A stretch of DNA of 64,000 nucleotides, from NCBI RefSeq assembly GCF_035083965.1, contig NC_089739.1, positions 8,916,001-8,980,000 of the forward strand, written 5' to 3'. Both the position numbers and the translations under genes were made by a program. The DNA comes from Branchiostoma lanceolatum (taxonomy: Eukaryota; Chordata; Leptocardii; Amphioxiformes; Branchiostomatidae). Under the pieces are notes generated by a model. That model was not told the DNA's origin and ran no database searches. It saw only the letters and a program-made list of their open reading frames with translations. Shown here in pieces: positions 2,281 to 28,200 of this stretch. Within the stretch, counting starts at the first letter, position 1. Every line of letters starts with the position of its first letter.

Positions 2281-2395
2281 TGGCTCAGTCACTGATGAAA
2301 GACAGCAGATGCAATTTGTATACATCTGACCATTTACAAATCTATCCAGTTGCTTGAGTAACTGTTCTCGTGCTACTTCCCTATTCCATTGTAGG
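2281..2395 (+). repeat. Dispersed repeat copy (R1) abutting the zinc-finger exon
   Basis: The segment carries the blocks CAGTCACTGATGAAAGA and ATCCAGTTGCTTGAGTAACT. These recur at 39849-39985, 46490-46615 and 59985-60190, and in fragments near 11795-11875 and 13460-13520. It ends at the pyrimidine-rich AG (2394-2395) that looks like the acceptor of the zinc-finger coding exon. Confidence 0.65.
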
Positions 2396-2407
2396 ATATT
2401 ACTAGAA

Positions 2408-3220
2408 ATGGACCAGCCAGCTTGTGGGCCACCCATTGATTGGATTGAGAACCAACCTACTGGCCATCCTGAGAACGAGACAAGATGCGCAGACGAACAA
2501 ACAGCAGACACAGGAAGGCAACAGGATGAAGGTGTTCTTTGGACAGAAGCGTCAACAAAGTCTGACGAAATATCCTCCTCACTTCTACATACACAGGACT
2601 GTAAGGATAGGAGGAACATGGTTGTGGGCAAATTTGCATGTGAGGAGTGTGGATACCGGGCACCTTATAAGTCACACCTCTCACGGCACATGAGAAAACA
2701 TACAGGCGAGAAACCCTTCAAATGTGACCAGTGCAACTATTCTGCTGCACAGAAAGGTGACTTAGACCAACACGTTATGATAAAACACACCGGTGAGAGG
2801 CCTCACATGTGTGGGGAGTGCGGATACAGGACTGCAATCAAGTCTGCCCTATCTGTGCACATGAGAAAACATACAGGTGAGAAACCCTACAAGTGTGACC
2901 AGTGTGACTATTCTGCTGCACGGAAAGGTGATGTCCTTCAACATGTCATGATCAACCACACTGGCGAGAAACCCTACATATGTGTGGAGTGCGGCTATAT
3001 GACTGCTGTTAGGGCCAACCTGACTTCACACAAGAGAACTCATTCCAACGTAAAACCATACAAATGTGACAAGTGTGACTTTTCCTCAACACGAAAATAC
3101 ACCCTGAAACAGCACATGAATAAACACACCGGTGAAAAGCCCTACATATGTGCAGAATGCTGGTATAGGACAGATACTAGTGCTAACTTGTACCGACATA
3201 TGAAAAAACATAACGGGTAA
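2408..3220 (+). CDS. Seven-finger C2H2 zinc-finger protein
   Basis: Single large coding exon, 270 aa from the ATG at 2408 (MDQPACGPP) to TAA at 3218. The reading frame stays open upstream to about 2354, but that part is repeat sequence and a likely 3' splice site (TTCCATTGTAG) ends at 2395, so 2408 is the preferred start. The first ~75 residues are acidic and unstructured. Seven fingers follow with TGEKP-type linkers, alternating a CGYR type (C-X2-C, H-X3-H) with a CDQCNYSAA type (H-X4-H or H-X3-H). The fifth-to-sixth linker is the variant SNVKP, and the last finger has W in ECWYRTDTS. Probably a nuclear DNA-binding regulator of unknown target. It is a paralogue of the gene at 1-183. No KRAB, BTB or SCAN domain is visible. 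Confidence 0.85.
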   Translation: MDQPACGPPIDWIENQPTGHPENETRCADEQTADTGRQQDEGVLWTEASTKSDEISSSLLHTQDCKDRRNMVVGKFACEECGYRAPYKSHLSRHMRKHTGEKPFKCDQCNYSAAQKGDLDQHVMIKHTGERPHMCGECGYRTAIKSALSVHMRKHTGEKPYKCDQCDYSAARKGDVLQHVMINHTGEKPYICVECGYMTAVRANLTSHKRTHSNVKPYKCDKCDFSSTRKYTLKQHMNKHTGEKPYICAECWYRTDTSANLYRHMKKHNG

Positions 3221-6510: not shown

Positions 6511-7221
6511 ATCGCCACGTATAAAGGAATTCGAATCGGAATTGTGACGCCCTCTCTCTCTCTCTCCGTCGCTTTTCTTTAAATCTATAACACCAGAAGA
6601 TAGAATGGTCTGAGCCCATTCTCGGCAGCGACGTTGAATATTCGGTAAGTGTAGCCTCTTTACATGGTATCTTATTGCAACCATATGTCTGGGAGGATTG
6701 GTCATTGGCTCAATTTTGCTCAAGGTGCTGAATATAAAGCTAGTGAATGAAAAGTACTATTTCAGTTGAAGAAAATACATGTATTTTAACCTCCTTGCAT
6801 GTATTTTGTATGTTCACAACCGACCGTCTTCTGCTATGCATTGTCCGAGTGCTCATGAGAAAACTGGCAACCCATGAAATACTGTTGTTGTTGAAATGTT
6901 GTTCAAATTGAAATGATATTCCAAGTAAGATTTTAATGATCACAAGAACGTCAACTCCTAGGTCTGTCTGACACTGCCCTTTCAATGTTTAGAAATGGCA
7001 TTATTGGCAAATCATTTGTTCTTTGAACTGTGTTACCACAGGTACTTATACTGACTTTTAGGTCGGTACCAAAGTGCTCACCAACCGTGCAGTAAGACGT
7101 GTTGAAACAACCCTTCCTCCGACATTGAGCTCGAGCATTTGATTCCATCAACCTCACCGAACAAGCTATAGTTCGAACAGTCCTTTGTAGTCTCAGTAAC
7201 TAGGTGCACAGCCTTAGACTG

Positions 7222-8532
7222 ATGATGAAGTACAAGTATTTTGTGTTCTTCATTCTTACGCAACTGATATCATGTATGGTATTAGGTGATTCGTTTCCGA
7301 CCAGATGTTATGTTAGGGATGGTTTAGACACAGCTATTAACTGCCCACATTCCAATATAACAAGCCTACCAACTAGTCCACCACATCTCGTGTATGAGGT
7401 ATTCCTCCAGCACAATCGTATCCAAACCGTCCACGACTTATCTGGCGTTTCGTTTAGCCGTTCGCTGAACCTTAGCCACGACGTTATCACATCATTTCCG
7501 TGGGAATCTTTGAATTATATGAAACACCTCCACAAGCTCGATTTATCTCATAATCGGCTAACCTCTATCAGGCTTGACTTGGCTAGAAAAGGCACAACGT
7601 TTCTATATTGGGTTAACGTAGCCTACAACCAGTTGGTTACCTTTTCTGAAGCAAACTTGGACAATCGTGCTCTAGATTCTAGAAAATATATCTACAGGCC
7701 TGCAAGAAAAGGGTACAGATTCGTCTATGGTAACCCGATTCTTTGCGACTGTCGTATGTCATGGTGGACAGAAATTGCTCTTACGTTTCACCAATGTTGG
7801 CCACACACATGTACATCAGTTGTCGAAGAGGGTCTGCTTTTTAACGACTTTGTTGTCAATGGCTTGCCAAAATGTAGCAGTCCCGAAATTCTACATAATA
7901 TGCCATTACATGAGGCAAACCTAACAACCTGTCCAACTACAGGAGAAAAAGGGACTGAAACACAACTTCCCATCTTAGAAAATACCACCGACTACTTCCC
8001 TATTTCTGAAACAATTCTACCACCCGAAAGAAACCAGTCCAAAGACATCCGGCATGGTCTACCTAAAGTTACACATCCTTCTACTAAGAACGAGATCGGT
8101 AGCATTCCCAACAAAGTAGCTATTGAAGCTAGAGACGCTATCTTAATAACCTGTGTAGGTGTTTTCAGTTTACTTTTAGTGGTGGCTTTCTCTGTAGCCA
8201 CAAAACATGTCATCCAAAAGAAATTGATTGATGAACATCCGGACGGACCCAACCAATATGAAGAACATGGGGAAATTGCAGAAAGATCGTACGTAAGTCC
8301 CGGACCACCCAACGTCCTTATGAACCCAGTTTACGAAAGGCATGGTGATTATGCTACGGTGTTGCCAATGGGACAATCCCCTATTCTTCAAACTCCAAGT
8401 ACAGATGAATTGCCCCGTAGAGTGTCCAACAATCGGCAGCGCACCTTGGAAAACGTCTTGTACGGAAGAAACCAAGCTGACTGTCAGTTTGATAGTGATT
8501 CCCTGTACTTCTCCAGACGTCTTACATTGTAG
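7222..8532 (+). CDS. Leucine-rich-repeat type I transmembrane protein
   Basis: Single coding exon, 436 aa from ATG 7222 (a second ATG follows at 7225) to TAG 8530. The frame is open upstream only through a GTG codon. A plausible acceptor (GTGCACAG) lies just before the start. Order: signal peptide ~1-22; LRR N-cap with RCYVRDG...INCP; about three LRRs (VYEVFLQHNRI, LHKLDLSHNRL, LYWVNVAYNQL); LRR C-cap (GNPILCDCRMSWW with later cysteines); an S/T/N-rich stalk with N-glycosylation sequons; a membrane span at ~307-330 (ILITCVGVFSLLLVV); and a ~105-aa cytoplasmic tail. The tail has tyrosine motifs: NPVY at 368-371, GDYATV around Y377 and NVLYGRN. These resemble adaptor-docking (PTB/SH2) sites, so a receptor-like role at the plasma membrane is inferred. 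Ligand unknown. Confidence 0.85.
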   Translation: MMKYKYFVFFILTQLISCMVLGDSFPTRCYVRDGLDTAINCPHSNITSLPTSPPHLVYEVFLQHNRIQTVHDLSGVSFSRSLNLSHDVITSFPWESLNYMKHLHKLDLSHNRLTSIRLDLARKGTTFLYWVNVAYNQLVTFSEANLDNRALDSRKYIYRPARKGYRFVYGNPILCDCRMSWWTEIALTFHQCWPHTCTSVVEEGLLFNDFVVNGLPKCSSPEILHNMPLHEANLTTCPTTGEKGTETQLPILENTTDYFPISETILPPERNQSKDIRHGLPKVTHPSTKNEIGSIPNKVAIEARDAILITCVGVFSLLLVVAFSVATKHVIQKKLIDEHPDGPNQYEEHGEIAERSYVSPGPPNVLMNPVYERHGDYATVLPMGQSPILQTPSTDELPRRVSNNRQRTLENVLYGRNQADCQFDSDSLYFSRRLTL

Positions 8533-8704
8533 GAGATCAGGAAATGTGCGATATTAAACAAATCCCGTGCTTTTGTTCGTGCATTTTCGAAACAGCACTC
8601 AGGTGTTAAAGCACAAAGTCAGTTCTATTTAGAGATCACCCTAAAATTGTTGGATACAATCACACTTACCAGTTCGACCACGGTACCATCCATATCATTT
8701 GTGA

Positions 8705-9630
8705 GTATAAGACTTTTAGAATTGTAAATGTTAGCGGTTTATGGGAGAAGGTTGAGGTTTAAGTTGCGAAGGTTTCGGGCTGAGAAGTAGAAAAGGTAAT
8801 GAATAACCAGGACCAAATCTAATAATAGCACTGATATTTCAACACAATACACTATGTACATAGTACTTATCATAAACTTTATTATTAAAACATAGCGTGT
8901 ATAAGACTTTTTAGAAATTGTAAATGTTAGAGGTTGAGAAGTAGAAAAGGTGTTAAAATATAAGCCAGGACCAAATCAAATGATAGCAGTGATGTTTCAA
9001 CACAATACACTATGTACGTAATACTCATTATAAACTTTGGTATTTAAACATAGCGTTGTTAGAGGTTGACAAGTAGAGCAGGTCTAATGATAGCAGTGAT
9101 GTTTCAACGCAATACACTATGTACAGACTGAATATTATTTATTATCACTTTTATTATTCAGATATAGCATGTACATATGTATGATGGTGCAGAATTCAGA
9201 ATTTATGTTGTGGTATCGATATATGTAGTAAGATGGTATAGTAAATTATACGAGGAAACTGAAGACTTTTAAAAATTGTAAATGTTAGTGGATAAAAGTA
9301 GAAAAGTTAAATCGAAGCTTAAGCCAGGACCTAATGTTGTAGCAGTAATATTTGAACACAACACACAATGTATAGCCTGAATATTACAAAATAGCATGTA
9401 CGGTGGTGCAGAGTTTGTGTTGTGATATCATTAAATGTAGCAAGGTAAAGTAAACATATACATGTACAAGGAAACTTGACTTTGAAATTTAATTCAAGAC
9501 TTGTTAGAAATTGTAAATGTTAGTGGGTAAAATGTAGAAAAGACGTTAAAAAAGCTTAAGCCAAGAACAGATGTTGTAGCAGTAATTTTTCAGCCTGAAT
9601 ATTGTAATATGGCATGTATGGTGGGGGAGT
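8705..9630. repeat. Five diverged copies of a tandem repeat, 3' of the LRR gene
   Basis: Copies begin near 8709, 8903, 9055, 9261 and 9499. They share the core AAATTGTAAATGTTAG, then AAGTAGAAAAG, TAAGCCAGGACC and CAACACAATACACTATGTAC. Copy spacing is irregular (about 150-240 bp). This probably lies in the LRR gene's 3' UTR or just beyond it. Confidence 0.8.
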
Positions 9631-11284
9631 TTTGTTGTGGTATCGTTGCATATATGTAGTAAGGTATATGAATATTTATATGTGAGAGCTTTGTCAAGAA
9701 AGAGACGTTTGAATGAAAGCTTTGCAAGAAAAGTCACATAACAATAATTGTAAGAAAAATTGTCCTTGGACAATCTCATCATGTAAAAAAATATCTAAGG
9801 GCCTTGAAATCAGATTGTTAAGCTTGTTACTGGTCGGGGTAAAACTGCATGTTGCAGCAAGCTAAATAGATTCGACTAGAAAGTATATTTTTATGTATCT
9901 ATTCTTCTAATTATGTCGATTATGCAAATTATGTTTCTACTTACTTCAAGTTGCCATTGGTGATTAATGTGGTGATTGCCATGTTTCCTATATATTCCAC
10001 ATTGAATAGACTTATGAGTTATGATGCATGGTACTTATAACAATACAACATGTAGTACATTGGATTGCAATCATCATGGCATGTTACTGCTGTGCCAGCT
10101 TTATTGCTCATTTGTAGGATTCTTATAGAAATATCATGACTAAAATAGCATCTTCTTTATGTACAAAATATTCCATTTTAAGATTTGCATAGCAGCTATA
10201 ACACCACTGAAGTTGTGCTAAAGAAAGGGCAATATAAAAGAATACGAAAGACAGCAATTCAACATTGTTGTAAATTGGACTGTAATATTTGGTATCATCA
10301 AGTTGATTCATCTCAAATATTTGGAATCAAAATCGAGTTAATACATTTACAATGTAAAAACCCTCTATACATGTAGTATCATTATTTGCATCTTGCTATG
10401 GTGCCCAAATAAGGCACATATATACAACTAGGAAAATTATTGAATGATTCTAATGAGCTTTACTGTCATATCACTGCTGCACAACTTATGTGCATTTCCT
10501 AGTCCTGGTCACATAATTGTGTAACTTAATATAGGCTTTAGCTTGTAACTATTGTTTCCTGCTTCTAATACCTGACCACTTCTAATTATCATCAACAATC
10601 TTTAACCAGGAATCTAACTTTCATTCACCATGCTTAATTTGCTGCCCTATAGTCTATGATATAGGGACATCTCATAGTGCAACATCATCCACATTATCAT
10701 TTGGTCCTCATGACCTAGATGAAAAGCAGTCAGCTGCCAGATACAATTTTTTAGGCATAATCATAGATTTTAAAAAAAGAAGAAGATAATTAGGATACCC
10801 AGTTAATTAATATACAAAATATGGAGTTGTCATGTTCTAACGTTACATGCAGAGTTTGCAATAGACGACATATCAAACATATAAAATCCTTATAAACTTC
10901 TATCTAATACTTTTTAGACATCTTAGCTTCTCCTGAATAAAAACCAAATTATATACAACAAATATACTTCTTCAATGATGCAAAACTTAAACTATTTTCA
11001 TAAAAAAATTACTTTTAAAATACAAATCTTTCCATCCAGAAAATACATTTAGCTATATATCCTTGATTTCAAATCAATCCATCAGTAAAAGTATTGTTTC
11101 ATATAAGTTATAACTTGCTCAAGCATATTACTCTTACCAAGGATAACCTCCTTGCTCTTACTAATTAGCTTTAAAAAAACATCAGTGAGCTATGGTACTT
11201 AATTAGTCCTATTTGCCTAGTTGGGCATGTACGTAGCTTTATGTACAGCCAGTAGTATGTTTAAAAGCTGTATTCAAACACAGC
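9631..11284. other. AT-rich intergenic stretch between convergent genes
   Basis: No coding exon was recognised. It separates the ends of the LRR gene (+) and the Ig/FN3/SEA gene (-). It may hold the long 3' UTR of either gene. A TTTATT (minus-strand AATAAA) near 10101 is the nearest candidate polyadenylation signal noted for the minus gene. Confidence 0.4.
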
Positions 11285-11346
11285 TCAGCGATCAGCCATC
11301 AAATTCCCGTTCTCATCTCCATCATCAGCAGGTGGATCTCCTTGGG
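11285..11346 (-). CDS. Terminal exon of the SEA gene, readable in two frames
   Basis: Joined to the exon at 12473-12601 (phase 1) it reads AQGDPPADDGDENGNLMADR and stops at 11285. Joined to the optional exon at 12286-12362 (phase 0) it reads PKEIHLLMMEMRTGI and stops earlier in the same exon. The first is the default in the gene model because it needs no extra exon. Confidence 0.55.
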
Positions 11347-14300
11347 CTTGGAAAAAAAAATTTAAACATTACAGTTACACATTTAACTTGGTGAGCATCA
11401 TCATCTACGCAAGTACTCTACCGGGCCACATTCATTGTACAAGATGCTCAGCAACATTAATTCCTGTACTAAAACAACAGGAGCTAATTGACTGTCTTAT
11501 TAGCGTACTACATGTATATGCTCTTCTATTGAACCATCCTAAATTGTCTTCATTCAGAGTTTTGGTATAAAACTACTTTCCAAGTTGAGGAGGGGTTTCG
11601 GCTGGTGTTTCTAGGCGTTTTTGTCGGGCTTTCTACTGTCATGTTTTTTTTGTATAGCCAACCCGTAGGTAAACAAAAAAAAACATGACAAAGTAGAAAG
11701 CCCGACAAAAACGCCTAGAAACACGTCAAAAACCAGCTGAAACCCCTCCTCTGCTTGGAGAGTAGTATAAAACCTGGTTCTCCAGTTCTTCCTTTTAGTC
11801 ACTGACGAAATGTCTGAAATGCCTGATGCTGTCTGAAAGGTCTGACTGTTTCAAACATTTATCCTGCTGCTAAATGAGTCACTGTCATTTGGTATAAGAT
11901 GCTCAAGGAAATGAAAATGTGGGTACATGTTCCTTCTCAGCTGCGCTAATTTTTGTCTTGGATCAATAAAGAAGCAGAATAAAATGATGGAGTTACTTAA
12001 GATTCCAAACGTATTAGATTGCACCCTTATGCATGGTCTGAAAAATTAATCCAATCGATCAATTTGCAATTACAACAACAAAAAAATACACTACATTGTG
12101 TATTCCTGAAACAGTCATTAATATTATCTAAGTAAGAGAACAATTAGCAGGTTATTCAATTCATCTGGTCAGAAACTTACACTCTACATCTTTAGAACTA
12201 GAGGATGCTCATGCAATAAGTTTCATGTACTTTGGAGATATGTAATTACTCTCCATAATCACTACTAAATGAAATACGTACATACTGAATTCTCTTTCTC
12301 AAAACAACATGCCAGCCGCTCAATGTCTATTTCTTTATCATTATCTGTATCGTAAAGTGCTACTAGTAAGAAGTATACAAAAATAAATCACGCACACGAT
12401 ATTGTAGATACAACTGAAGTTAAGTGTGTACTGTCAAGATTGTTAATAAGCATAACATCAATGAGTTGTCACCTTGATTTTGTGTCGGACTCCTTATCTT
12501 CTTGAAGTGGTACGGAAACCACAGTAAGACTAAGACAGTGCCACACCCAATAACAATAATCAAAACCTTTGTAGCGGCTGGCCTTAGCAGTTCTTTGTGG
12601 TCTAAAGAACATAAAAAAGCAATGTCAGTAAAACATAAATAATCAGGTTTAATTTGATACAAAGAGAATACCACAACATCACCAGAGGTACCAGCCCAAC
12701 CGGCAGTGGGTGATCTGATTTGCAGGAGGGCTAGAGCCTAGGGTGGTATGAAATTCACTGTGCGGGTAAAATTCTATCAATGTCATACCTGCCCAAGAAA
12801 AACACCAATCGTAAATGTAGCAACCTAATATAAATACTCATTGAAGGCGCTCTATGTTACGTATTGGCCATACCATAAAGTACAGACTGATCCTTATCAT
12901 GCTTACAGGAGGTTATAATGGTCAGGGTATGACATAAAGTAAATAAAGATGCTAAACTAATAGTATTAGTACATGTACATTAGTAACGTTATATTATTTT
13001 AGTTGTCAATACATTCCTGTGTATTACTGAGTAATACACAGGAATGCGTTGACAACTAAAATGAAATCAAACAAGTTATTTGACAACGTTTCACAAAGCA
13101 CACATTTGTGTTCACCCACCTATAGCATAGCCAGTCTGTATGATAACACCTGCACAATTCAGAATAAACCCGCAGACAAGGACTGTAGAATAGAAATATA
13201 ATCAGTTAGACACGCACTTAAACCTCAGGATCTAATCAACAATGGTAATAGTATCTGATTCAATACTACACAATTAAGAAGTATTCAAAAACAAGTCGTT
13301 CATGTTAAAACATATTACAGCCAAATAAATAAATAGATAAAATAAAACAACTTATGGATCCCTGATAGACTGGTTGCATACAAATGACAAAGCAACCAAC
13401 ATTCCATGATTAATAATATTACAAATTTGTGGGTTCAGAAAAAAATATACCTGTCTGGTAGACAAGCCAAAAATAGTTACTCAAGCAACTGGATAAAATA
13501 TTGAAACAGTCAGACATTTTACCCACCTGGTATATATACATGTATTCAAAACTAAAAATACAATATTAACATTTGATTGCAAGCAAATGCATGATGTGCT
13601 CCTAAAACATTTTCATTCAAAACTGTCTAGACCTTACAAAATCATACAATCATACCAATCTTTAGCTTACTAGAAAAAGATCTTAGCACAGGTGCCTTAA
13701 ACATAATTTTTTCTACAAATAGCTGAATATGTATCAAACGTCAAAAAATTTAAATTCTTTACATAAGGCCACACCATTTTAATTTCTTGGTTAACGGTAT
13801 TTAAAAAAATGCTAGATTGGAAAATCAACAAGAAAACAGAATCTCAGAGGAAAGTTTGTACTTTGGTGCACACAATTTCAGGGAGTGAACAGGGTCAGGT
13901 GCAAGTTTTCACCCCAGTCCTCTGTTTTCATGATTTTTTTGCTGAAATCAAAAAATAAATCCGTTAACCAAGAAATTAAATTGGTGTGGCCTAATGCTGT
14001 ATTGGATCATGGATCCTTAAACTCATATCTTGTTCTGTAATACAATATCAAAATAGAACATGAGCCTGTCAAATATGTTTTTGTGTAGAAATAGTCTCCA
14101 GCCCCTTCCTAAGTTTTCTTTAATCATTTCAAAGGCCTGAATCAAGAACATAGACATTAGATTAAGAAATACCTGAATGTACATATTCCAATACCACTCC
14201 CATATCAAGGTCCACGTCATTTAGCTTTGGTATGCAAACCTATCATTATAGTTACCAAGTGTCTTCTTCCTTTTACGCAAATATAGACCAGGCCAGGCTA

Positions 14301-17300
14301 TCTTGGCATAGGAGCAGAAAATAGCTTCATATATATATATATAGAGAGAGGAAAGAGGATGAAAGATTGGTAAAAAAAGCTCCAAAAATTGTTTTGAGAG
14401 CCTGTATCTTGAATGAACATGAAAAGAGCAAACATGTATTAGTTAACTTTGAAAACTATGAAATGTCAAGTTATTTGGCATAGAAATGAAGGTTTGCCAT
14501 CTTTTGGAAAGGTGTTGGGTCAAAATACAGTATCAACAGAAGGAGAAGAGCAACTGTTACGATAAACATTGGAGGAAACAATGATGTCAATGATTTGCAG
14601 TTCATGCTGCTATGTTTTTAAACTTAAAAGTACAATCCTCTAGCTTGGGTATCATCTCCCTTAGTTACCGCTGGCACGGCTTAGTTACCGTTGGCTCCGC
14701 TGGCTCAATCTTTTTGCTTGCTCACCATGTCGTTTCGTGGTGACTAAGTGAAAAGTTTGAGCCAGTGGTAACTACAGAGGATGATACACATCAAGCTAAC
14801 AAACCTCCATGAAGGCATGGGCAGATCCTCTGACTGATAATGCCCAAAGCCCCTGCAACTCCATAGAGAAGTACACCAACAGAAACAATGAACAGTTCCA
14901 GGTAATTTCCATCTTGAACTGTAAAAACAAATGAGGATAATATAGACTCAGAGTGATGACACATTACATAACATGCATTGTCCTTAATCTGATTATGCAA
15001 CTTTCACAAATTTCAGAAATAATGTGTTCCTTCAAGCTATCATACATGTCAGAGAATACTGTATCAACACCACAAAACTACAGGGACCATGACTATGTTA
15101 CTCATTAAGACAGTCTTGTACAAAAATAACATGATTATAAGTATTCAGATGAAATACTTACTGCTTTTCGATAGAATGGAGATGGAAATCAGCGTAGAGG
15201 ATGAAAAGACTGCTGTGATCACAGGTCCAATATAAGTGGAAACCTTGGTCCACTCTGAACGCTCTGTAGAACATAACAAGCCACACAGCAATGAACTTAA
15301 CAATTATCATAGTTTGATTAGGGTTATTTAGGATCAAGAAAAACATTGTACCATTTTGATTTGCAATTTTTAAATGTTCAGATAAAGTTACTCTTAATTT
15401 TCTCCAAATGTATCTATTGTGTACCTTTGAATTTTTATGTTAGAAGTCTAGAAAGAAACTTTAGATAATACTTTTTTGATTGATGCTCAACCTCTCAATT
15501 CTTTACCCTTGGTTTATAAAATGACCTACTCAAAAGATATACTCACATGTTTGAATAAATACCTCCACTACGATCTGAACAAGGAGCATCAAGTTGATTA
15601 TTTGGTACAGCAAAAATACTGGAGCTGAAAGATCTTTATCTGGGACATCTGTGAAAAGCGAAATTAAGAAGAAAACAATTATTGCTTTTACTGTTCTATA
15701 AGTTACAACAGTAAAAAAAAGTGAAGAAAAACAAAAATGAATTTCAACTAGAAAGGCAACATTTGCACAAGCAAATACAACATGTATCACCCATTTCCCT
15801 CCCCAAGCAAAAAGCGACTGTTCGAATGCAAAAACTAACGTTTTTTGTATGTCGCTCTGCAATGTTGGTATTTGAATAAAGAATTAAATTGAAGACCAGT
15901 CAGAAATGGATCTCTCCCAAGTTGGAACCCTATGCATGGATGGGCTCTTCCAGGTACACATATTCATACTGGACCATTAAAAAAATGCCTCTACCAAAAA
16001 ACCTGGACTTTTTTGATAATCAACCAAGCCCAAAATTGAATTTTCAAAAATGTCCCCCGCATACAAGAATGGACTCGTCCAGCTGTGTATGGGCCAAGGA
16101 GGTTAAAATAGTATCATGCAAATTTCAGAATGTAAACAACTAGAATCTTGATGAAGATCTAGATTTCTTCTGCGGAAGAATTTCCGGAATCCGAGAGTCC
16201 AGATAATTTTGCATTATGCAGCCAACACTTCTTTGGAACCAACTCAGCTTTTGCAAAAAATTCACAAATTTCTGCTAAACGTACCGCAAATTTCAGGTGC
16301 GTATTTCTTGACCTGTACTGTAACACTGACACATACCACCATTAAAAAAATGTTGCTGAAGAAAGGATACACAAACATTTGTAGGGATATGAACCTTTGC
16401 GTACTGTTGGTGTAAGTGAAAACAAGCTATTGCTTAATATTATACAATCATATATGTACACACAGAGAGGAATGTAGAACAATACATTTATGTGGAAAAA
16501 CACCACCAGAAAAAGTTTTGTTACTGAAGGCGTAGATTTTGAACCTTCTCAATTGCACATAACGGGTGTTGCCCTAACTTATGACGCGCCCTAACTTAGG
16601 ACGGATTTTTTAGTGATCTTGTTAGGCATAAGTACGCCGTGTTTGTGTCCACTGACTATGCTCATACATGTCATAAGGAAGATTTTTTATTTGCATTCAG
16701 AACATATGTGTACATATTCATTTCTTGTTTTGTCGAGAATAGTATTTCGACAATAATGATGGCAACGCTGAGTAGAGGGTCACTGCGTAGCTAGACGGCC
16801 CGACACCTAAATATACGACCTGTGCCAAGCAGATATAGATCTACAACTATCATACACATAAGAAATATAACTTCATAAAACACAAAAAAATTGGGTCTTT
16901 AAGTGTTCGTTGAGAAGAAAACCGACCAAAGAAAACAACATAAACATCGCTGCCATCTGGCAACGTTGTTTTCCCGCCATTTTTTGGGGCCGCGATGGTG
17001 GCGGACGGCGATTCAACGCACAGCTTTGTAACGCTCTAACATGTGATTGGTACCGTCTATGAAAAGGAAACTGAATACAGATATGGCGAAGATATTTCCC
17101 AATAAGTTGACGGACTATTGTTGATGTAAGCTGTGTCGTTTTTTCGTAATGATTTTGTAAGTCGGGTCGCATGCAAGACGTATGTCGGGCCGCGCGCAAA
17201 GTGCGTAGTAGCCTATTTCCCGCCAAAACATGAGCTGGGATGCGCTAGATATAGCCCTTCTCACATGACGTTAGAAGTGCACACAGTCAAAATTTTCCGG

Positions 17301-20300
17301 TCAAAAGAAAGCTAGAATATAGCAGACTTCAAGCCTTATTTACATTTCCCTAACTTCATCACCAACTTCCGAAGAGAGCAAAATTACCAAAGCGTACTAA
17401 GTTAGGCACACTATCTGGTGTAGCACTAAATCAGAAGCTACATTCGTGAAAACGTCTCACAACGTTTGCCGCTTGTAACTCGGAGCGTGAAGGGCCCATG
17501 AACAGTATGAATACATTTCTTGTCCATGTATGTTCTTTAGATGAATGTGTTCAAAATTCATTCATTAAAACATGACCATTCTCTGGCAACCAGCAATGGA
17601 GCGCCGTGAGTTCGAGCGCGTAAAAAAACGTCCTATGTTTGGGCGACTCCCGTTAACTTCAGTAAGACACAGCATTAAACAACACAAGGACAGGAGCCAG
17701 GGGGCAGTGAAGTTGTGCCTGTCTGCACCTGGCAGATTTATAGTGCTCCTAATTAAATTGACTATTTCAACCAATCAGGACGAGTTTAATAAATCCGTAA
17801 GTATATTAATAGGCGCTCTCTCATTGGCTGACTGAATTAGCCCACTTGGCTACCCATGCCCACCTACTAGGAATAAAGATATGACCATATATGACCATAT
17901 ATGGCAACACCATTGATGGTCATATGAGGAAAATAGCCAATTTTCCCCAAAATACCCTCCAAAATCGTATTTTGAAGTGATGTATGCCAAAAGTACGAAT
18001 GGGGTTCTTTGAATATATTTGTTCAATGTACCCCCATAGCAAATTTCAGGTCATTTGGATGTATTTCCAGAGCACAGGAGGCCAAAATGTATGTTTTTGG
18101 ACAGAAAAACCTCAATAAAATCATTTTAAAGGCATTTATTGAAAAAATGAAAAAAACGTCTGGAGGTATGCACTTACTTTACCTGCATACCAAATGCTTA
18201 TTTGGCCCAGGGGCGACCGAGATGAATCGATTTGAAGATTTGGCAGGAGGAGGAGAAAGAAACATTACAAAAACAATATGTACCGCCCATACCTAATATG
18301 GGCTAATATGGGCGATACATAATAAAATGAGTAATATCATGCCCATAGAGGCATACAATGTAAGTACCTTTAGGCTTTTCATCATCGATATCAGCCCCGT
18401 CCTTGTCAATGTTGAAGTCTCCCAAGCGTTCATTTTGAATGCTGTACCAGAAGGCGTCCTTGGCTGATTTGATCTCACTTTCAGCTACGGTCATACGGAT
18501 ATCAACCATCACACCTCCCGTATGCCTGCATAAGAAAATTACAACTTATATGAATGATTGAATAGTTATAACAGGAGGAGCCTTAACATAACACACTTTT
18601 TCATGCACTCAAACTTATGCCGCTCCATTGTTAGTTGTCAGAAAGTGGTCAGGATCTTAAATAAGATTTAGACATATTAATCTTAAGAACATATTTGAGA
18701 AAGAAATGCATTAATACGGTTTGTGAACCCTTCAGTCTCTGCATTACAACCGGTCAATGCTGCAAGACGTTTTTGTGAATGCTTCTTCTGATTTTTTCAG
18801 CTATGTGTATAGACTTGATTTATTTACCTCTCTAATCAGCATAGTACTAGTAGGTGGTAACAAATGCCGTACTTATGCATAATAAGATCAGTAAAAAATC
18901 CATGTTTTATTAGCGCCACCCTGTTATACTATCAGAAATGTGTCAACCTGACATACCAGCATAACTCAAGATTGTATGGAGTGAGTGAGTGAGTGTGAGT
19001 GATTGGTATTGAATATTGAGTGTGGGAGTATTATATAAGCTGCTTACGCAAATGATCCTCCAATTTCTCTGAAGTGATCACATTCAGACTTCTCGTAACC
19101 AATGATGGCGTGGAAGACTTTGCCAAGCTGTAGTCACAATGTAGATATCAACAATTAGTGTATAAATGTTATGTTAATCATAGGATTACTTTTTGTACAA
19201 CTTAGCAAGATTTGACTGTGGTGATGGATTGCTGAAATGCTGTGATTTTAACAGCTTGGATGATGTGCCCAATTTAGAAATCAAAACTCTACTAGTACAT
19301 GTACTGTTCATAACAGGATGAACCCACTGCCTTACACACTTGGTCAACATAAACTAGATAATATATATATTAAAGAAAACAGTAGAAATGCAAAAATTAG
19401 ACGAAGAAAATCTGCTAATTTTGATGGATATCTAGGATCAGTCTGTTATTGCTATGTGTTGTCTTTGATAACACAAAAAACTACCTCTGATCTGACTTCA
19501 GTGCACAGTTGAACAGCTGAAGGTGAGGACAGGTTCTGCAAATAGTCACTGTAATCCCAGTTGGTGATGGGTAGGCGGCCGTACAGGGTGGCAGCATCTG
19601 AGAAAAATTCAACAACAAAAGTTTAATGCAAAACCAACTCAAATCTAATATGTTTGTTCTCTGATAAAGTACTGATCTGACAGATCAACATGAAAACAGA
19701 TTGAAGTGAAGTTCTTAAAGGAAACCCAAGCAATATTAGGGACTGAAAATCGGATTTTGAAAGTCAATTTATACAGTCATTTCTATACATGATTAGTTCA
19801 AACAACACTTTCACAATGTATAGCAATGTCCATCATGCAAAAATATGACACTGAAAATCGTTGCCAGGGTTTTTGTAGGCTTGCGCAACTAAGGGAATCA
19901 TCGTACGGCATGTTTTTGCACGGTTTTAAATGCTCAAACTATGAAGTTTATTTCCATATTTTGGGCCCTGATATTGCTTTGGTTGCCTTTAAGATGCACA
20001 CAGTTTCAGCAAGGTACACATATGTAATCATGGTGTTTCGAACCTTTTGAAGCTCAATATATCATCAACAAACCTTCTATAGTCACACTGATCACATTAG
20101 AAGATGCAGCAGGTTGTATCTTATTTGCTGCTCTGATCCTGATGTTATATTTTCCCTTTTTTGGAAGCTGGAAGATCATATTAGTGTACTGTGGATGATT
20201 GCTGTTGGCTGGTTCAGTCACCAAATGCCCATCTAGATCTACCCATTCTCCGTCCACTTTTCTGTACTGTACTGTGTGAGTTGTGTCCAGTCCACCATTG

Positions 20301-23300
20301 AACCCAGCTGTCCACTCTAAGGTTACATATCTATGGGAGTTCTTCCGGGTAACTGTAAGGTTGTACGGACGTTCGGGGGCACCTGTGAGGAATTCAACAC
20401 TGATCATGACCAAGTTGAAACATAAATACCTCCCAAGCATTCTTAATAAGCTAGCAATCTGATTAAACAAGTTTGACTAACAATAGGTATATTTATGACA
20501 ATGAGTTATTTCTACCCATTTGTACAATGAGCATGGCAATGTTAAAAAATTGTAACTTAATAGGCCACACAGATCTTAAAATTTTAATTTCACAGTAACT
20601 GTTGTATATATGAAACATGTTTTGTTAGCTTACAACAAAACTGTGTTTGCTCATCAGAAACATCTTTTACTTTAACATTTTCAATCAAAGGGTATAACAA
20701 TACCTGCCCTTGGCGACAACTTTTTAAACAACATACAATGTCAAAATCATATCACTAAACAGCTTTGAACAGAAAGAAACTAGTATTTATTACTGTCCAT
20801 TGTTTGAAGATTGATTTTCACAAAAAACATCCTGGTTGTCCTTACTTTCAGCTGCAAGTTGGATGATAGCAGAACTGCTACCCTTGGAGGTTGTAGCAGT
20901 AATGTCATACAAGCCATAGTCAGTCTCTGTCACTGCTGGGAAGCTCAGTGTGGTCTGCAATTCATCATACGTGATGATAGCAGTGTTTGGCACTCTCCCT
21001 CCATCCTTAGACCAGGAAAATTCCACTGGCAAGGGGTAGGCAGTGACACTGACGAGGAAGGCACTTGGGTCGCCCTTTGCAACCACATGTTTGTCTTTCA
21101 TGGCAAAGAACTTGGGGGCATCTGAGAGAAATAGACAATGCATGCCTTAGTCCAATGCAAACTTAAAGACAAAATCACCAAACAACACCGAAATACAACA
21201 ATTTTCAACAACAACAACAACAACTGTATATTGTTGAACTGAAATTGGACATCGTAGAACACAGCACATTTCAGAACCTTGGTTTTTAGAACTGTGCTGG
21301 TTAAGATGGGATTTTAATCCCTAACTTTGAGATCCTGAAGAAGGATTGCTAACAGCTAGAATATCACATGATACTAAACTCCTTTATTATCTGGGCTGTC
21401 TCCAGCTTTAAATTTGTTTTGGTCCCACTAGATTGTCTAGGACCCTCGTAAAACTTGTCATTTCAAGCTTACAAAAATACATTTGAATCAATTCCAATTG
21501 TCATGAAGTTCATATGTTTTTTGACAGATGGGGTAAAGTTTTTTCCATCCCAACAAGCAAATTTCTGTCCTGGGACAGAGGGATGGGTCCTGGAGACAGC
21601 CCTGTGACTTGTAAACACAATTTGCTATAGTACTAGGCAGACTTTGTGGAAGCCACGAAATTGAAATAATAGAGTAAAATGCACTGTACTTACAGTTGAC
21701 AGAGAGAGACAGGTTAGCTCCTGTTGTGTGTCCGACTTCACATCTGTAGGTTCCAGCATCACTGGGGGAAACCCTGTCAAGACGGTGGGTTAGGCCCAAA
21801 CCGTCATTGATATGACTTAGAGGCCTGTCATTTTCCTCAGACCTATCCCCCATCCGGATTATATCTATATGGAAAGGACCAGGGATCTGATCACTGGTCA
21901 CTCTGCACGTCAGTGTTACATTCTTCCCTTCATCCACTGGGTTGGGATAGGCTGTGAGTGTGATGTCTGGAACTACAGAAAACAGTTTGCATGTCTGTCT
22001 AATCATATCTGATGTTTTAGGAACATGATGGCAAATTCAGCACAGAAAGATCCAAAAATTGCTAGAAGTAAGGCTGGTCCTTAAAGTTCCTCCTTTCTCC
22101 CTTTAACATTATGAACATTACAAACATCTTCTCACACCAGGCCCACTTATGTATGTATCATACAATGACCCTGGCTAACCAGCCTGTGATCCGTCCTTCT
22201 CACTGTTTTAGCGCTGATCAGCTGTCAGCCAACCAGATCCTTCCCCTCCTGTTGTTGTTGGAGAGAAGGTTACTAGCCAATCATGTTGCCTCTTGACATT
22301 AGGTGGGAACATGATTGGCTGGTAACCTTCCCTTCAACAACATCTGGAAGGGGAGTATCTGATTGGCTGACAGCTATCACAGTGAGAACAACGGACCACA
22401 AGCAGGTATCCACATGGGTCATTGCTTGGGCCAAGCTGTGGGCCCTGCATACAGGCTGCATACATGATACATGTATTATACATAGACAAGCTGTGAGCCC
22501 TGCAAGCATACAAACATACCAAGAAATGCTCTCTCTCACACGTGGATAGTAGAAAACCATTCTACAGTTACGAAAGTTGACTACAATGAGCCAATGACCA
22601 TCACCAAAATTGATTGATTGAGAAAATTCATGCAAAATGAAAAATGCGAGCTGTCACCCAATAAAAGATTATTAAGAGTCTTATTGCTCACCGATGATGT
22701 GTATGTTCATGAATGGTCCTTGCAAGCCCTTCTGTTGGAACTGGTAGTACACATGTATATGTCCTCCTGGGGCTTGAACGTCTGTTGTTCTGACGTCTCT
22801 GAGTTCCACTGCAATTCCATGTGGTCCCTCTTTCAGGGACACACGGTCTTTGTACTCTTCTGAAATGCTGGCATCCTGCACAGGTTGGTCTGAAACAGTG
22901 AAAGGAAGCCACAAATACTACGTCATGTTGTATCATAATTTACAAGGACTTCTTTTCACACAGGGAGGGGAAAGGAGGTGTTAAACAGTGTTGTGGTTGA
23001 AACAATACAGCTGTAAAGTAATAAGACAGAATACATGTTCACAATGTAATGAGGATGTGAACATGAACTACTCTGATCATTTCACAATGGACAAGACAAA
23101 TACAATTTTGCACAACACTATCAAAGTTTTGAGTCTCTCCTCTACTTGTTAGTCACTGTCAAATGAGGAATGGAAAATAAGTGCATTCAAATATCAACAT
23201 TGGTTTGATAAAACCAAACATATTTACGAACAAAAGACAGCATCCGGACCTGAACCTGAATGTCTGGACCTAAACCTGGATTTGAACCTGATCAATCTGA

Positions 23301-24393
23301 CCCGGTAACCACCCCACCCTACCCCAACTGTGTGGACAATCTGACACACCAATGTAATGTCTGCACATCAGTACAGTTCTTAGTATAATAACATGATTAT
23401 ATAGTGTACAATAAGTTTAAAAGTACCTGCAGCTGACCAGTCCAGAAAGACTGGAATGATGTCATAGGGTTTGTCGGGGTAGACTATTAATTTAAAAAAG
23501 CTTACTAGTAAGTCTTTGTTGGGGTCAAACTGGGTGAAGTCACTAAGCAGCATCAGTGCAGTTTCACCCTCTTGGACTTTTATGAAGAAACAAAGAAAAA
23601 GACATTATGATTAATCTACAAACAAAGGACTATCATGCTACTCTAATCTGTACAGACACACACACACAGACACACACACACATAATGTTACACATGTACT
23701 TTGTAACGATAACAGACTTACAGAAAAAGACATAAGTTATGTGGGACATCCAAAAAGGCCAAAACCATCAGGCCCTTGGAGCGAGGACGTACAGGAAATA
23801 CTTTCAATTGGTAAAGTTGATCAGGAACACATTTTCATACATTTTGAGAGGTGATATTACAACAAGTTTAATAAATAGAAACTCTTTGCTATGAACAAAC
23901 AAGATTGGGCAGTTTGAGTATACTTAGAATATACAAACGGTTTAAAGATATTTATTCAAGTTATTGTACAGAAAGCCATCACGTGCACGGTCACTATGAA
24001 TCATCGAAAAAGTGGGTGTGCTTCAAGGAGAACATTCAACCTGAAGAGTCCGTTCATACCCAGTTTTGCCTTCTACTCTAGCACGAAATCTCTTGTACAT
24101 GTAAGGAAGGCACCTGTTACGCTGTAGGAAAGTAGCCTGAGTACAAGAATTGAGCCAGCGGTCACTACGGAGGCTGGTACTCAGGCTAGTAGGAATACAA
24201 AACAATAAATTTTGCAACTTCACAAATGTCAAAGCTTCGGATCCAAGAACGATCTATCAATTTGATATATAGAACCTCCCTGTTTAGACTTACCATATAT
24301 ATCTATATCTCCTTCTTTACTCCATACTCCTTGTGAAAGCACGAGAAACACGGTAATCACAAAACGGCACAGCGAAAACATTTTTGAAAACAT
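11285..24393 (-). CDS. Ig-Ig-Ig-FN3-SEA multi-pass membrane protein
   Basis: Hand-spliced minus-strand model. Exons in order: 24294-24393, 23427-23576, 22692-22889, 21694-21972, 20846-21121, 20074-20382, 19485-19597, 19048-19127, 18368-18525, 15162-15263, 14805-14918, 13120-13182, 12473-12601, 11285-11346. They give 710 aa with all phases matching. The signal peptide is ~1-25 (MFSKMFSLCRFVITVFLVL). A V-like Ig domain without cysteines follows (~33-149), then an Ig with the CxC pair (TLTC...GTYRC, ~150-242), a third cysteine-poor Ig (~243-334), FN3 (~335-437) and SEA (~438-550). Four hydrophobic segments (~562-585, 595-615, 627-646, 656-676) and a basic-then-acidic tail complete the protein. 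Alternative exons exist at 15547-15648 and 12286-12362. Likely a cell-surface adhesion or receptor protein; I know no named family with this order. The 5' end lies head-to-head with the TIR-Death gene. Confidence 0.75.
11562..11775. repeat. Long fold-back repeat in a SEA-gene intron
   Basis: The arms (GTTTCTAGGCGTTTTTGTCG and its complement) pair over about 80-90 bp around a ~25-bp loop near 11652-11676, with one small indel. No coding content. Confidence 0.85.
12286..12362 (-). CDS. Optional exon of the SEA gene with an EF-hand-like loop
   Basis: It lies between an acceptor (TTCTTACTAG) and a donor (GTATGTAC) and enters in the phase left by the preceding exon. It encodes VALYDTDNDKEIDIERLACC... 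The run DTDNDKEIDIER has D at loop positions 1, 3 and 5, a hydrophobic residue at 8 and an acidic residue at 9. Position 12 is R, not the canonical E. It leaves in phase 0, which puts the last exon in a second frame. Could be a calcium-binding cytoplasmic tail variant or a chance exon. Confidence 0.4.
12996..13062. repeat. 67-bp near-perfect palindrome
   Basis: 32-bp arms (12996-13027, 13031-13062) around a 3-bp loop, with two mismatches. It sits in the intron 57 bp below the exon at 13120-13182. Confidence 0.85.
13767..13991. mobile_element. 225-bp MITE, Harbinger-like
   Basis: The ends GGCCACACCATTTTAATT and AATTGGTGTGGCC are inverted repeats of about 32 bp (matching also GGTTAACGG / CCGTTAACC). 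TAA flanks both sides as a 3-bp target duplication, as in PIF/Harbinger-derived MITEs. Intronic. Confidence 0.75.
14640..14800. repeat. Fold-back repeat beside a splice donor
   Basis: The outer arms TAGCTTGGGTATCATC / GATGATACACATCAAGCTA and inner arms GTTACCGCTGGC / TTGAGCCAGTGGTAAC pair. In the minus-strand transcript the hairpin starts only a few bases after the donor of the exon at 14805-14918. A related shorter palindrome is at about 24128-24192. Confidence 0.75.
15547..15648 (-). CDS. Alternative membrane-span exon A of the SEA gene
   Basis: 102 nt with a strong acceptor (CGCTTTTCACAG) and donor (CAT|GTGAGTA). It enters and leaves in phase 1 like its neighbours. It encodes DVPDKDLSAPVFLLYQIINL followed by a hydrophobic run to VFIQT, a clear membrane span. 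Splicing it to the next exon (15162-15263) creates TAG at the junction. Splicing it to 14805-14918 stays open. It is therefore either mutually exclusive with 15162-15263 or makes a short single-pass form. Confidence 0.6.
15649..18367. other. Large intron of the SEA gene with repeats
   Basis: No extra exon was recognised. 16550-17410 holds CCTAACTTA motifs in both halves, and 17870-18300 carries a repeat-like block with short ATGACCATATATG duplications. Open frames at 16873-17226 and 17572-17835 lack any recognisable domain. Confidence 0.35.
21430..21610. repeat. Dispersed repeat (R3), copy 1
   Basis: The blocks GTCATTTCAAGCTTACAAAA, CCCAACAAGCAAATTTCTGTC and GGAGACAGCC recur in the same order at about 41805-41945 in an RGS22 intron. 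Confidence 0.65.
22220..22375. repeat. 156-bp fold-back repeat
   Basis: The ends AGCTGTCAGCC and GGCTGACAGCT are exact complements. The arms continue inward through CCTTCCCCTC and GGTTACTAGCCAATCATGTT with few mismatches, leaving a loop near 22291-22301. Intronic in the SEA gene. Confidence 0.85.
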
Positions 24394-25217
24394 TTTGACG
24401 AGGAAATTTGTCCGCCAACGTGAGTATTGGGTTCAAAGGTAAATAGAAGAGTGCACTCATGGAGAGGGGTAACGCTAATTTGGGCAACTGCTGATTTATC
24501 ACTTCGTGAGGGGTTTAGAAATACTTTAAAGCATTCATACAAATAAAATCTATTTGCAAGATACAAAACTATTCTATTTTGTTACCATTTTGTTTTCTTA
24601 GTTGTTTCTAACTATTTTCATGCATTATCAAACCCTGTCATTTTGAATGGTACGTCCTTAGAGAGATAGGATTTGGGGATTGTTCGCGCCAAATAAAATG
24701 GAGGGACAGTGTCCTGTATTTTGGCGCGAAACATTTGCTACTTTTGGACAACATTGTAAGTAAGGATCGATACTTATTCTGTCATAATGTCCCATTTCCA
24801 AAAGATGACAATGAGTACGTGAAATGCCGCCATGACTGTTGTCAAAGTTCCCTGAAGTTGCATTATTAGTATGGGGAGGGGCAGCGTTGGAAGGCAGACG
24901 AAGGCAGTATCATCATCACATTATCATTATCATGCCAGGGCACCAAATATGATCATACTAGTAACGTTAATAGTGCCAAATTTTTAAGTCTATTTCTTTC
25001 CCAGTCCACTTCTATGGAACTTGACACATACTTACTAAGTAGCTACAGAAAAATATGAGATGGCAAATTGTAATACAGTATGACAAATGGACTAGCTTGA
25101 CACTGAGTGACAAAGTAAAGAAAAACCAGGGAGTCTACTTATAACCTCCTTGGAGAAACTGAAACAGATTAGGTGGAAACTGCTTACCAATTCTGTTCAA
25201 CAACCATCTTGAGTGAG
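24394..25217. promoter_or_regulatory. Shared head-to-head promoter region
   Basis: 824 bp separate the start codons of the minus-strand SEA gene and the plus-strand TIR-Death gene. No other exon is evident. E2F-like sites lie near the middle (24683-24731). Transcription starts cannot be fixed from sequence alone. Confidence 0.5.
24683..24731. promoter_or_regulatory. Inverted pair of E2F-like sites
   Basis: TTCGCGCCAAA at 24683-24693 and TTTTGGCGCGAAA at 24719-24731 both contain the TTTSGCGC-type E2F/DP core, facing each other 25 bp apart. It is the only such pair noticed in the intergenic region. Confidence 0.5.
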
Positions 25218-28200
25218 ATGACAATGGCACATTCAGAAGGGCATGTACAAAATGACTTCCTGTACGATGCAGTACTTTTCTATGAGAAGGATGATCCAGA
25301 TAAATGTAAGGTTGAAGAAATCAGGAGGATACTAGAAAGTGACAGTTGGAGTGTCAACGTTTTTGACCCACATCGTAGCGAGGAAGGCAACAAAATGGAC
25401 GCATTCCAAGAGTCGTTTAAAAACAGCCGTCACGCCATCGTGTTTCTCACCAAGACTGTTCTACGATTCCTGGCAGAGAAGAAAAATGCAGAGGCGACGT
25501 TTCATATGTCGACCTTCTTGTGTAGCCTTTTGTCGAGTCACGACAAGAAAATCGCTCGCCGGCTGATTCCGATCAAGCTGACCAATGACAGAACTCCATT
25601 TGTGCTAAGCGACCTCAGTGGATTGGAGCCAGGGCAGGTGGGGTTTAGGAGAAAGCTCTTCAGGAGTCTCAGTGTGCCGCCAGGTAGGTACTAGTAGCAC
25701 CAGCTGCTGTTTGTTGATAAACAATAGTCAGTTTTTCTAATCACCTAATCACCAATGCAGTAGTCTTGTCTGTTTGTTTGTTACATTTCCACTGATGAAC
25801 TTGTGTATTACATTGTATGGTGGATGTTTTGTGAACCTATTCTTTTAGTGTTTACTCTAGGTCTAATCTTAGATTTATTTAGATTTATTAGATATTTTTA
25901 CACATAAGTTATCACATGTACATGTAATGTTACATGTTGTTGTTCCACAGGACCACACACCCCTTCACAAGTCCAGGTAAGACAGAAGGTGCAGGAGGCC
26001 CAGAAGACGGTGGTGCTGTCTGATGTTGTGGTACAGAGACTGGCTGCACGTCTACACGTCCCACCAGAAGTCATGGCCGACATTCAGCAGGAGTATGGAG
26101 GGTGGAAGGCAAGGGCTATGGAGGTGGGTGGGAAACAAAATTATACATTTTTTGTACAGTTGACTGCTCAGGAAAAGTGTACATAGGAAGTTTAACAAAG
26201 GGGGTTAAAGAAAGAAACCCTCTCTCTTTACTCCTTAAAGTAAGTAAAACTTTTTTGAACAAAATTAAGAATTTAAAGTCTCTGTCTGCTATCATGACTT
26301 TATCCAGGAAAGCTGATGGCTATATTTACATAACAGTGGGTCAGTTTTCCTGAGGACAAGGTGAATATCATATAGTACTAGCAAGGACATTATATTGTTT
26401 ATATAATGTCCTTGGTACTAGTTACTGTTTTTTTATAGATTTCTCAAGACAAATTTAGCTCTGTTTCAAATTTGTTATTCCTGAGAGATATCAATGAAAG
26501 GATAATGGATGGAGAATAGAGGGGAAAGAAGAAAGACAATTTAAACATGTAGGTGTCCTTCCATCTTGAGACATGATGGTAGCAGTCTCTGGTATCAGGG
26601 CCGATGACAGCGTAAACATGTTTTGATGAAATAGATATTCTATTTGGAAGGAACGGTAGGAATAATGCTAAGGAAAATGTGTGGCAAACTTATATATTAC
26701 TCCCAAAGAAAGTAAAGAAACAAGGAAAAAGATGAATCTGTGTTTGGACCTACGATGTACACAATAAAAAGAAAATTAGAGTACAGCTTTGTTGTTAGTT
26801 TATACAGTCAAACCTGACATCAGCAACCACTCAAGGGACTGAGGTAAAATGGTTGCTGAGGACAGGTGGTTGCTGAGGACAGGGTGGGGTTAACCATGTG
26901 AAAATGGACGGGATTATTTTTGTGTGACTGGAGGTGGTGGCCTGCACCAGTTGGCTGCCCGAACAAGTTTCACTGTATTATAGTATGATTTATGCAGGTA
27001 GTGGACTGTTGGAGGACTCGCTATGGTGAGGAGGCCTCCATGGACAGACTGACTGAGGCTCTGCGGAGTATAGCAGGGCAGACTCTGCAGGATGGAGCTC
27101 AGAGCACAGGAGGGACACCTTGGCAAGAGGAACCATGTCCACGGAGTCTAGGTGAGAATTCTGCTCTCTCCATTTCACCACTGACATGTGGAAAACTCAA
27201 ACTGTATTTGAAAGTATGTGGAATGTTTAGACTGTTTAGGTACTGACTTCAACATTGTGGTTTTGAATGGCAGAGCAGCTTGGCTAGCAGAGATGACACT
27301 AAGAGGTCATGGGTTTGATTCCTGGCTAGACATTGTGTCCTTGGGAAAGGCACTTTATAGGACTTTCCTCCCCACTCCACCCAGGTGTAAAAATGGCTGC
27401 CTGACTTCGGTTGGGGAGGTAAAAGGCAGTAGAAAGAGAGGGATGGGCTCTACCTTCCAATACCGGCCCTAGACACAGTGGATAACAACACGCTGCCCCT
27501 ATGGTCTCATAAAATCTACCTGTACCTTCCTTTTACCATAACTTGAAATGTCTTCCGTCAGAATTGAGGTTGTTGGAAGATTGTCATTCATCATTGTAAA
27601 TATTTCTGCGCCTGACTTTTCATGCTGAAGACTACTAGTATCTTGATTAGCCTCCTTTCAGTAGACCCTGCTTTTCAGATGGCCCATGGCACTGAGTGGG
27701 CTATTTTCTTATTTTTTATGATACATTGTATTAACAAAGCAAATTTAAAGTTCTCATTGTCTATTTTCCACCTGCTCAGTTGAACACCAGCCCCCTGACA
27801 ACCTGCCATCTTCAGTAGGAGTCCAGCCAGATGGTAAGTTGTCATCTATACTACACTTCTTGTCAAACAGCTTTATGAATGAATTTTTAACTTGTAATGT
27901 AAGTGAAAGTGAATTGGTATCCTTCCTTTGTCCATTGGCACTAAAGTCAATTTTGACATTGCTCTGAGACCTGCAGATTTACTTCTACAAATGGTATGCT
28001 CAGGTTAAAATCAATTCTTTGTGCTCATTGTCTCACATGTTTGAGCCACACCTTGAGCATGTTAAGATCCCACTGCACTAATCAAAAACAGTAGGAACAC
28101 CTTACACTCCAGTCTTTTGCAGCTTGCACACAAAGATATGAAAAGGTGACCTTGACAAGGAAGACCTGTTTTGCTATACCGTCCACTGTGTTGGAAAAGC

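Follow-up and report, generated by a model that had tools for sequence, protein, structure and literature searches.

Two candidate membrane-span exons meet at a stop codon in a predicted immunoglobulin-domain receptor gene of Branchiostoma lanceolatum

On the minus strand of a 64,000-nucleotide stretch of the Branchiostoma lanceolatum genome (contig NC_089739.1, positions 8,916,001 to 8,980,000; this whole stretch is referred to below as the window), two neighboring exons of a predicted receptor gene, A and B, cannot be translated when joined as written. The question is whether the stop codon at their junction belongs to the way the transcript is spliced or to this particular copy of the gene. 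The initial annotation described both exons as 102 nt long and of phase 1-1, each with good splice sites and a hydrophobic segment in its translation. This proved correct to the letter, and the frame of each is open. On the minus strand, the borders read cacag/ATG...CAT/gtgagt for exon A and tacag/AGC...GCA/gtaagt for exon B (slashes mark the exon ends); after the upstream exon end at 18368, in phase 1, exon A is translated as DVPDKDLSAPVFLLYQIINLMLLVQIVVEVFIQT and exon B as ERSEWTKVSTYIGPVITAVFSSSTLISISILSKS. The exons were excised and joined to their neighbors in four ways. As claimed, A followed by B gave T/AG, and both A to C and B to C were in frame, the latter two because the upstream exon E9 ends in G (phase 1) and exon C begins with TT. 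Skipping both exons (E9 to C) also left the frame open. The exons, the frames, the hydrophobic segments, and the stop are all present in the sequence as it stands.

The surrounding receptor gene was modeled from sequence alone (Table 1). Reading of the minus strand at 13800-19000, 8500-13800, and 18300-26000 gave a putative 15-exon gene whose start codon lies at 24393 and whose stop codon ends at 11285; the model was read by eye and checked by script. All introns of the model are GT-AG, and the frame is unbroken apart from the A/B junction. The encoded protein would consist of a leader, an N-terminal region that matched no profile, two Ig domains, an FN3 domain, a SEA domain, five one-span exons (A to E), and a short acidic tail.

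Table 1. Exons of the predicted receptor gene, with window coordinates
Feature	Coordinates	Strand	Basis
E1, start codon and hydrophobic leader (putative signal peptide)	24294..24393	-	gene model
E2, N-terminal region, first part	23427..23576	-	gene model
E3, N-terminal region, second part	22692..22889	-	gene model
E4, Ig domain	21694..21972	-	Ig_3 E 9.1e-19, best stretch residues 153-229
E5, Ig domain (I-set)	20846..21121	-	I-set E 6.5e-13, best stretch residues 246-331
E6, FN3 domain	20074..20382	-	24.4 bits vs cut-off 25
E7, putative SEA domain, part 1	19485..19597	-	SEA profile
E8, putative SEA domain, part 2	19048..19127	-	SEA profile
E9, putative SEA domain, part 3, and linker to spans	18368..18525	-	profile match ends inside E9
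Exon A, span A, ends in T	15547..15648	-	splice sites, window scan, span prediction
Exon B, span B (marginal), starts with AG	15162..15263	-	splice sites, window scan, span prediction
Exon C, span C	14805..14918	-	gene model, span prediction
Exon D, span D	13120..13182	-	gene model, window scan, span prediction
Exon E, span E and start of HFKKIR tail	12473..12601	-	gene model, window scan, span prediction
Exon G, acidic tail and stop codon	11285..11346	-	gene model

Scores of 68.2 bits for Ig_3 (cut-off 30) and 49 bits for I-set (cut-off 23.7), with two stretches each, place the predicted protein in the Ig superfamily. The second Ig domain, in E5, has zero cysteines and so is without the usual disulfide. 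Over E7 to E9, the SEA profile reached E 7.1e-5 and 23.3 bits, below the cut-off of 26.4, and 18.7 bits in the whole protein. In autoproteolytic SEA domains, a G-S pair lies ahead of a V-rich strand; the SEA part of E9 reads HTGGVMVDI in place of that pair, so the domain may not self-cleave. Pfam gave nothing below E 0.24 for E2 and E3. In the PDB, the best 60 of 135 matches to the ectodomain were general Ig/FN3 proteins, e.g., titin, Robo, and NCAM2. A possible extra tail exon of 85 nt was observed at 12278-12362 (minus strand), between E and G; it is open from E (VALYDTDNDKEIDIERLACCFEKENSVC), breaks the frame into G, and could be an alternative tail or a last exon.

Relatives of the gene were sought at several levels. 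Within the window, tblastn with E9, A, B, C, and the first Ig exon returned the queries themselves and weak scattered matches, with one weak Ig match falling in E5. For the span region, Pfam listed no CD47 or GPCR family in any form tested, and its matches were at chance level (PhoR, E 0.42 and 6; BCHF, 0.47; 8xMP, 7.1); in the PDB, the best matches were PsbX (E 0.47) and flagellin (E 0.52). NCBIfam profiles gave zero matches. Two contig collections not meant for animals were also searched: the part from C to G had 93 pattern matches with 0 confirmed in a genome contig collection, and the form with exon A, from E4 on, had 1 pattern match with 0 confirmed in a viral contig collection. Among the matches listed in the literature searches, no paper on this receptor gene was recognized. 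A named orthologue of the receptor may well exist.

Several other features were found in the window. At 25173-25691 (plus strand), an open frame that matched TIR weakly (E 0.0025, below cut-off) is oriented head to head with the receptor gene, whose start codon is ∼0.8 kb away. Leucine-rich repeats (LRR_8, E 5.8e-10) occur in an open frame of 442 residues at 7204-8529 (plus strand), which converges on the receptor gene's 3' end. Open frames with several C2H2 zinc fingers (2330-3217, plus strand) and with a G8 domain (63163-63630, minus strand, E 1.4e-25; as in CEMIP-like proteins) were also seen. The hexamer ACATGT occurs 57 times, against ∼20 expected from composition. No Rfam family at the gathering threshold and no tRNAs were found in the window.

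Splice sites were scored with approximate matrices. The acceptor and donor scores of A (4.3 and 4.8) and B (3.4 and 2.4) lie within the range of the gene's other exons. A scan of the window for open symmetric 1-1 candidates of 60 to 150 nt, with cut-offs of at least 3.0 for acceptors and at least 2.0 for donors, found five on the minus strand, of which four were hydrophobic, namely, A, B, D, and E, and two on the plus strand, of which none was; knowledge of A and B guided the cut-offs, and the scan was neither blind nor exhaustive, exon C for one falling below the donor cut-off. That A or B is a chance look-alike and not an exon of this gene could be argued from their codon scores, which 9% (A) and 5% (B) of random 102-mers from introns equaled or surpassed, though the scores are weak in all five span exons, C, D, and E included. 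Beyond A, B, D, and E, no hydrophobic candidate of such grade occurred on either strand in the whole window, and a look-alike appears very improbable indeed. We conclude, as far as sequence can tell, that A and B are both exons.

The junction stop itself is uncommon within the gene. Of 134 combinations of phase-1 donors and acceptors of the receptor gene, two produced a stop, with E4 and A as donors and B as the acceptor in both; A-B was the only one of these between neighbors. Only a T as the last base of exon A makes the stop, and T closes 2 of the 12 phase-1 exon ends of the gene, A counted, whereas G closes 8. If the intron after A were retained, reading would end five residues on (CEYIF). 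The equal length of A and B is the only such case in the 45 pairs among ten symmetric internal exons. The initial annotation had also pointed to the fact that either exon joins C in frame; because 10 of the 13 internal exons are of phase 1-1, and thus skippable in frame, this is expected of any of them, junction stop aside, and is not distinctive.

How the exons would place the protein in the membrane was predicted with insertion-energy parameters and a cut-off of 2.5. Energies of −0.6 (A), +1.85 (B), −0.09 (C), 0.38 (D), and −2.34 (E) gave five spans for A plus B with the stop ignored, four for A only, four for B only, three for neither, and one for A followed by the stop. Given an extracellular N terminus, only odd numbers of spans put the HFKKIR tail inside, and four spans put KKIR outside. 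This parity argument depends on B, the weakest of the five, being a span; if it is not, B only and neither would have three spans each and A plus B four, and the argument would be reversed. The marginal energy of B would be in keeping with a role as second helix in a hairpin. Lys/Arg counts outside and inside were 7/6 for both exons, 7/3 for A only, 8/4 for B only, and 5/4 for neither. With the stretch before the first span left out, the inside excess was +2 for both, +1 for neither, 0 for B only, and −1 for A only, and with it counted, no form had more positive charge inside than outside. The counts agree weakly with odd-span parity. It is quite improbable that the pair acts as a topology switch, in which A alone would give four spans, B alone (if non-inserting) or neither would give three, and both would give a single span ending at the stop; just as improbable is the corollary that one splicing decision sets the KKIR tail to the cytosol, to the outside, or to absence.

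The initial annotation read the arrangement as the signature of mutually exclusive exons. Two published schemes for selecting such exons use similar length, the same frame, and homology, going by the excerpted text of PMC3228551 and PMC7954323. Like homologous pairs of this kind, A and B are neighbors of equal length and phase whose double inclusion is untranslatable as written; unlike them, they lack the homology that both schemes, as excerpted, call for, and the signature is unsupported. The two translations are identical at 1 of 34 residues (ungapped shuffle P 0.48, local P 0.31), and the DNA is identical at 27 of 102 positions (P 0.50). Origin of B by tandem duplication was considered and rejected: of the ten pairwise comparisons of spans, the seven that involve A or B gave no P < 0.2. 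Among the three without A or B, D-E had a P of 0.024.

The stop, moreover, bars constitutive joining at these sites only and is not in itself a mark of mutual exclusion. A version in which A and B are mutually exclusive or independent cassette exons, offering alternative first spans while the stop polices double inclusion via nonsense-mediated decay, is conceivable but doubtful. It would fit the shared length and phases, the good sites of both exons, their open joins to C, and the stop upon double inclusion. A stop more than 50 to 55 nt ahead of an exon junction invites decay; this one precedes the B/C junction by ∼100 nt, has more junctions behind it, and would do so. The missing homology, in protein and DNA alike, lowers this version. 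No inverted repeats of at least 14 were found within 14800-16100, an interval that covers the smaller part of the 2.7-kb intron before A, and the stretch 14919-15700 showed no special fold (z = 0.00; 11 of 20 shuffles folded at least as well). The 283-nt intron between A and B seems too long for steric exclusion. Inclusion of a single exon would also leave four spans with the tail outside, unless B is no span.

Double inclusion would, as proposed, encode a short single-pass form made of the ectodomain, span A, and the stop. If that join were really used, as regulated truncation, the ectodomain would sit tailless on span A or the transcript would be unproductive, and the full-length receptor would skip one or both exons. 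The highest-scoring pair of sites yields exactly this product, and without either exon the frame stays open and the receptor would have three spans, its tail inside. A precedent is offered by adhesion GPCRs, which likewise set a large ectodomain built of domains on a base of several spans; the excerpt of PMC11039983 lists isoforms reduced to a membrane-anchored N terminus. They differ in that the predicted receptor has at most five spans rather than seven, with no GPCR family among its Pfam matches. Regulated truncation is nevertheless unlikely, since zero sequence signs indicate that both exons get skipped, and exons that served purely to make a stop would not need to be as open and hydrophobic as A and B are. 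As a case of splicing, the A/B pair is a candidate example of a type already known.

The initial annotation allowed that other splice sites might remove the stop. That part stands, as stop-free joins exist, but only with lower-scoring sites. Nineteen in-frame, stop-free joins of A to B were enumerated. Of the three best, a donor at 15563 with an acceptor at 15261 (VVE/RSEWTK) keeps five spans with a score sum of −2.2, and the donor of A with an acceptor inside B, before 15212 (sum 4.7) or 15209 (3.0) at a CAGCAG pair, cuts away part of span B and gives four. These sums compare with 8.1 for the plain A-B pair, and the acceptor at 15261 has GAG at its end, with a better CAG two bases earlier. 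The gene does have further weak sites (E4 acceptor, −0.5; E8 donor, −1.2), and joining by other sites would restore the frame; even so, this is again unlikely, a shade more so than truncation. No stop-free mini-exon was found between A and B (acceptor at least −2, donor at least −1.5, length 3 to 240 in multiples of three). By eye, a strong-looking acceptor (tttctttctag) and a donor (caaag/gtacac) enclose 23 nt of the A-B intron at 15425-15447 (minus strand); this stretch is unable to bridge A and B because of an in-phase stop inside it. RNA editing of the first base of exon B, turning the stop to sense, was set aside, as no sign in the sequence supported it.

The reading we tentatively prefer, while short of confidence in it, is that A and B supply spans 1 and 2 of a receptor with five spans, the stop being peculiar to this haplotype or sequence. 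The gene would be built with one span per exon and spliced A-B-C-D-E, and the TAG at the A/B junction would be a nonsense allele or a base error, not a splicing code. Several findings point this way: the splice scores of A and B fall inside the range set by the gene's other exons, and both stand out from background as open, hydrophobic frames; the two begin a continuous series of five exons with one span each; with the N terminus extracellular, five (or three) spans keep the KKIR tail inside; the modeled frame contains no second break; and the stop hangs on a terminal T, the base at 2 of the 12 phase-1 exon ends, of which most have G. Both exons would have to be included normally, B would have to be a span, and the stop would have to be not fixed in the species, and all three we infer. 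Against the preferred reading, the forms differ little in charge, B is possibly no span at all, and the equal length of A and B is left without explanation. Nonsense variants in working genes are also rare. Single-base variants were reported at 4.39% in a diploid lancelet genome assembly (excerpt of PMC4284660), and such a difference between haplotypes would make a variant stop easy to accommodate.

In layout, a five-span receptor of this sort would recall CD47 (integrin-associated protein), which joins an extracellular Ig part to five spans and a short tail; the predicted protein would have five hydrophobic spans, with the N terminus out and the C terminus in as in CD47, only with both A and B read, and B is marginal. 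According to the excerpted text of PMC10902115, human CD47 has 13 exons, and its tails are set by skipping of exons 8 to 13; on that count, five exons would presumably serve the five spans. The two differ in that the spans of CD47 come from constant exons while its tail varies (same excerpt), and in that the ectodomain of the predicted receptor has two Ig domains and putative FN3 and SEA domains. The search for the CD47 membrane-region profile listed no CD47 family up to E 10, a range in which HMMER filters drop most weak matches, and the PDB matches to the spans included no CD47 chain. The likeness thus appears to be one of layout only.

The stop between A and B could mean alternative splicing and could equally be a one-letter variant or an error in this gene copy. 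A haplotype variant would serve as a warning that, in very polymorphic animals, a reference built from a single haplotype can mimic a splicing code. Should the stop be fixed and both exons be in use, splicing would alter the span parity of an Ig receptor, which, if true, would be a direct means to flip or drop the receptor's tail.
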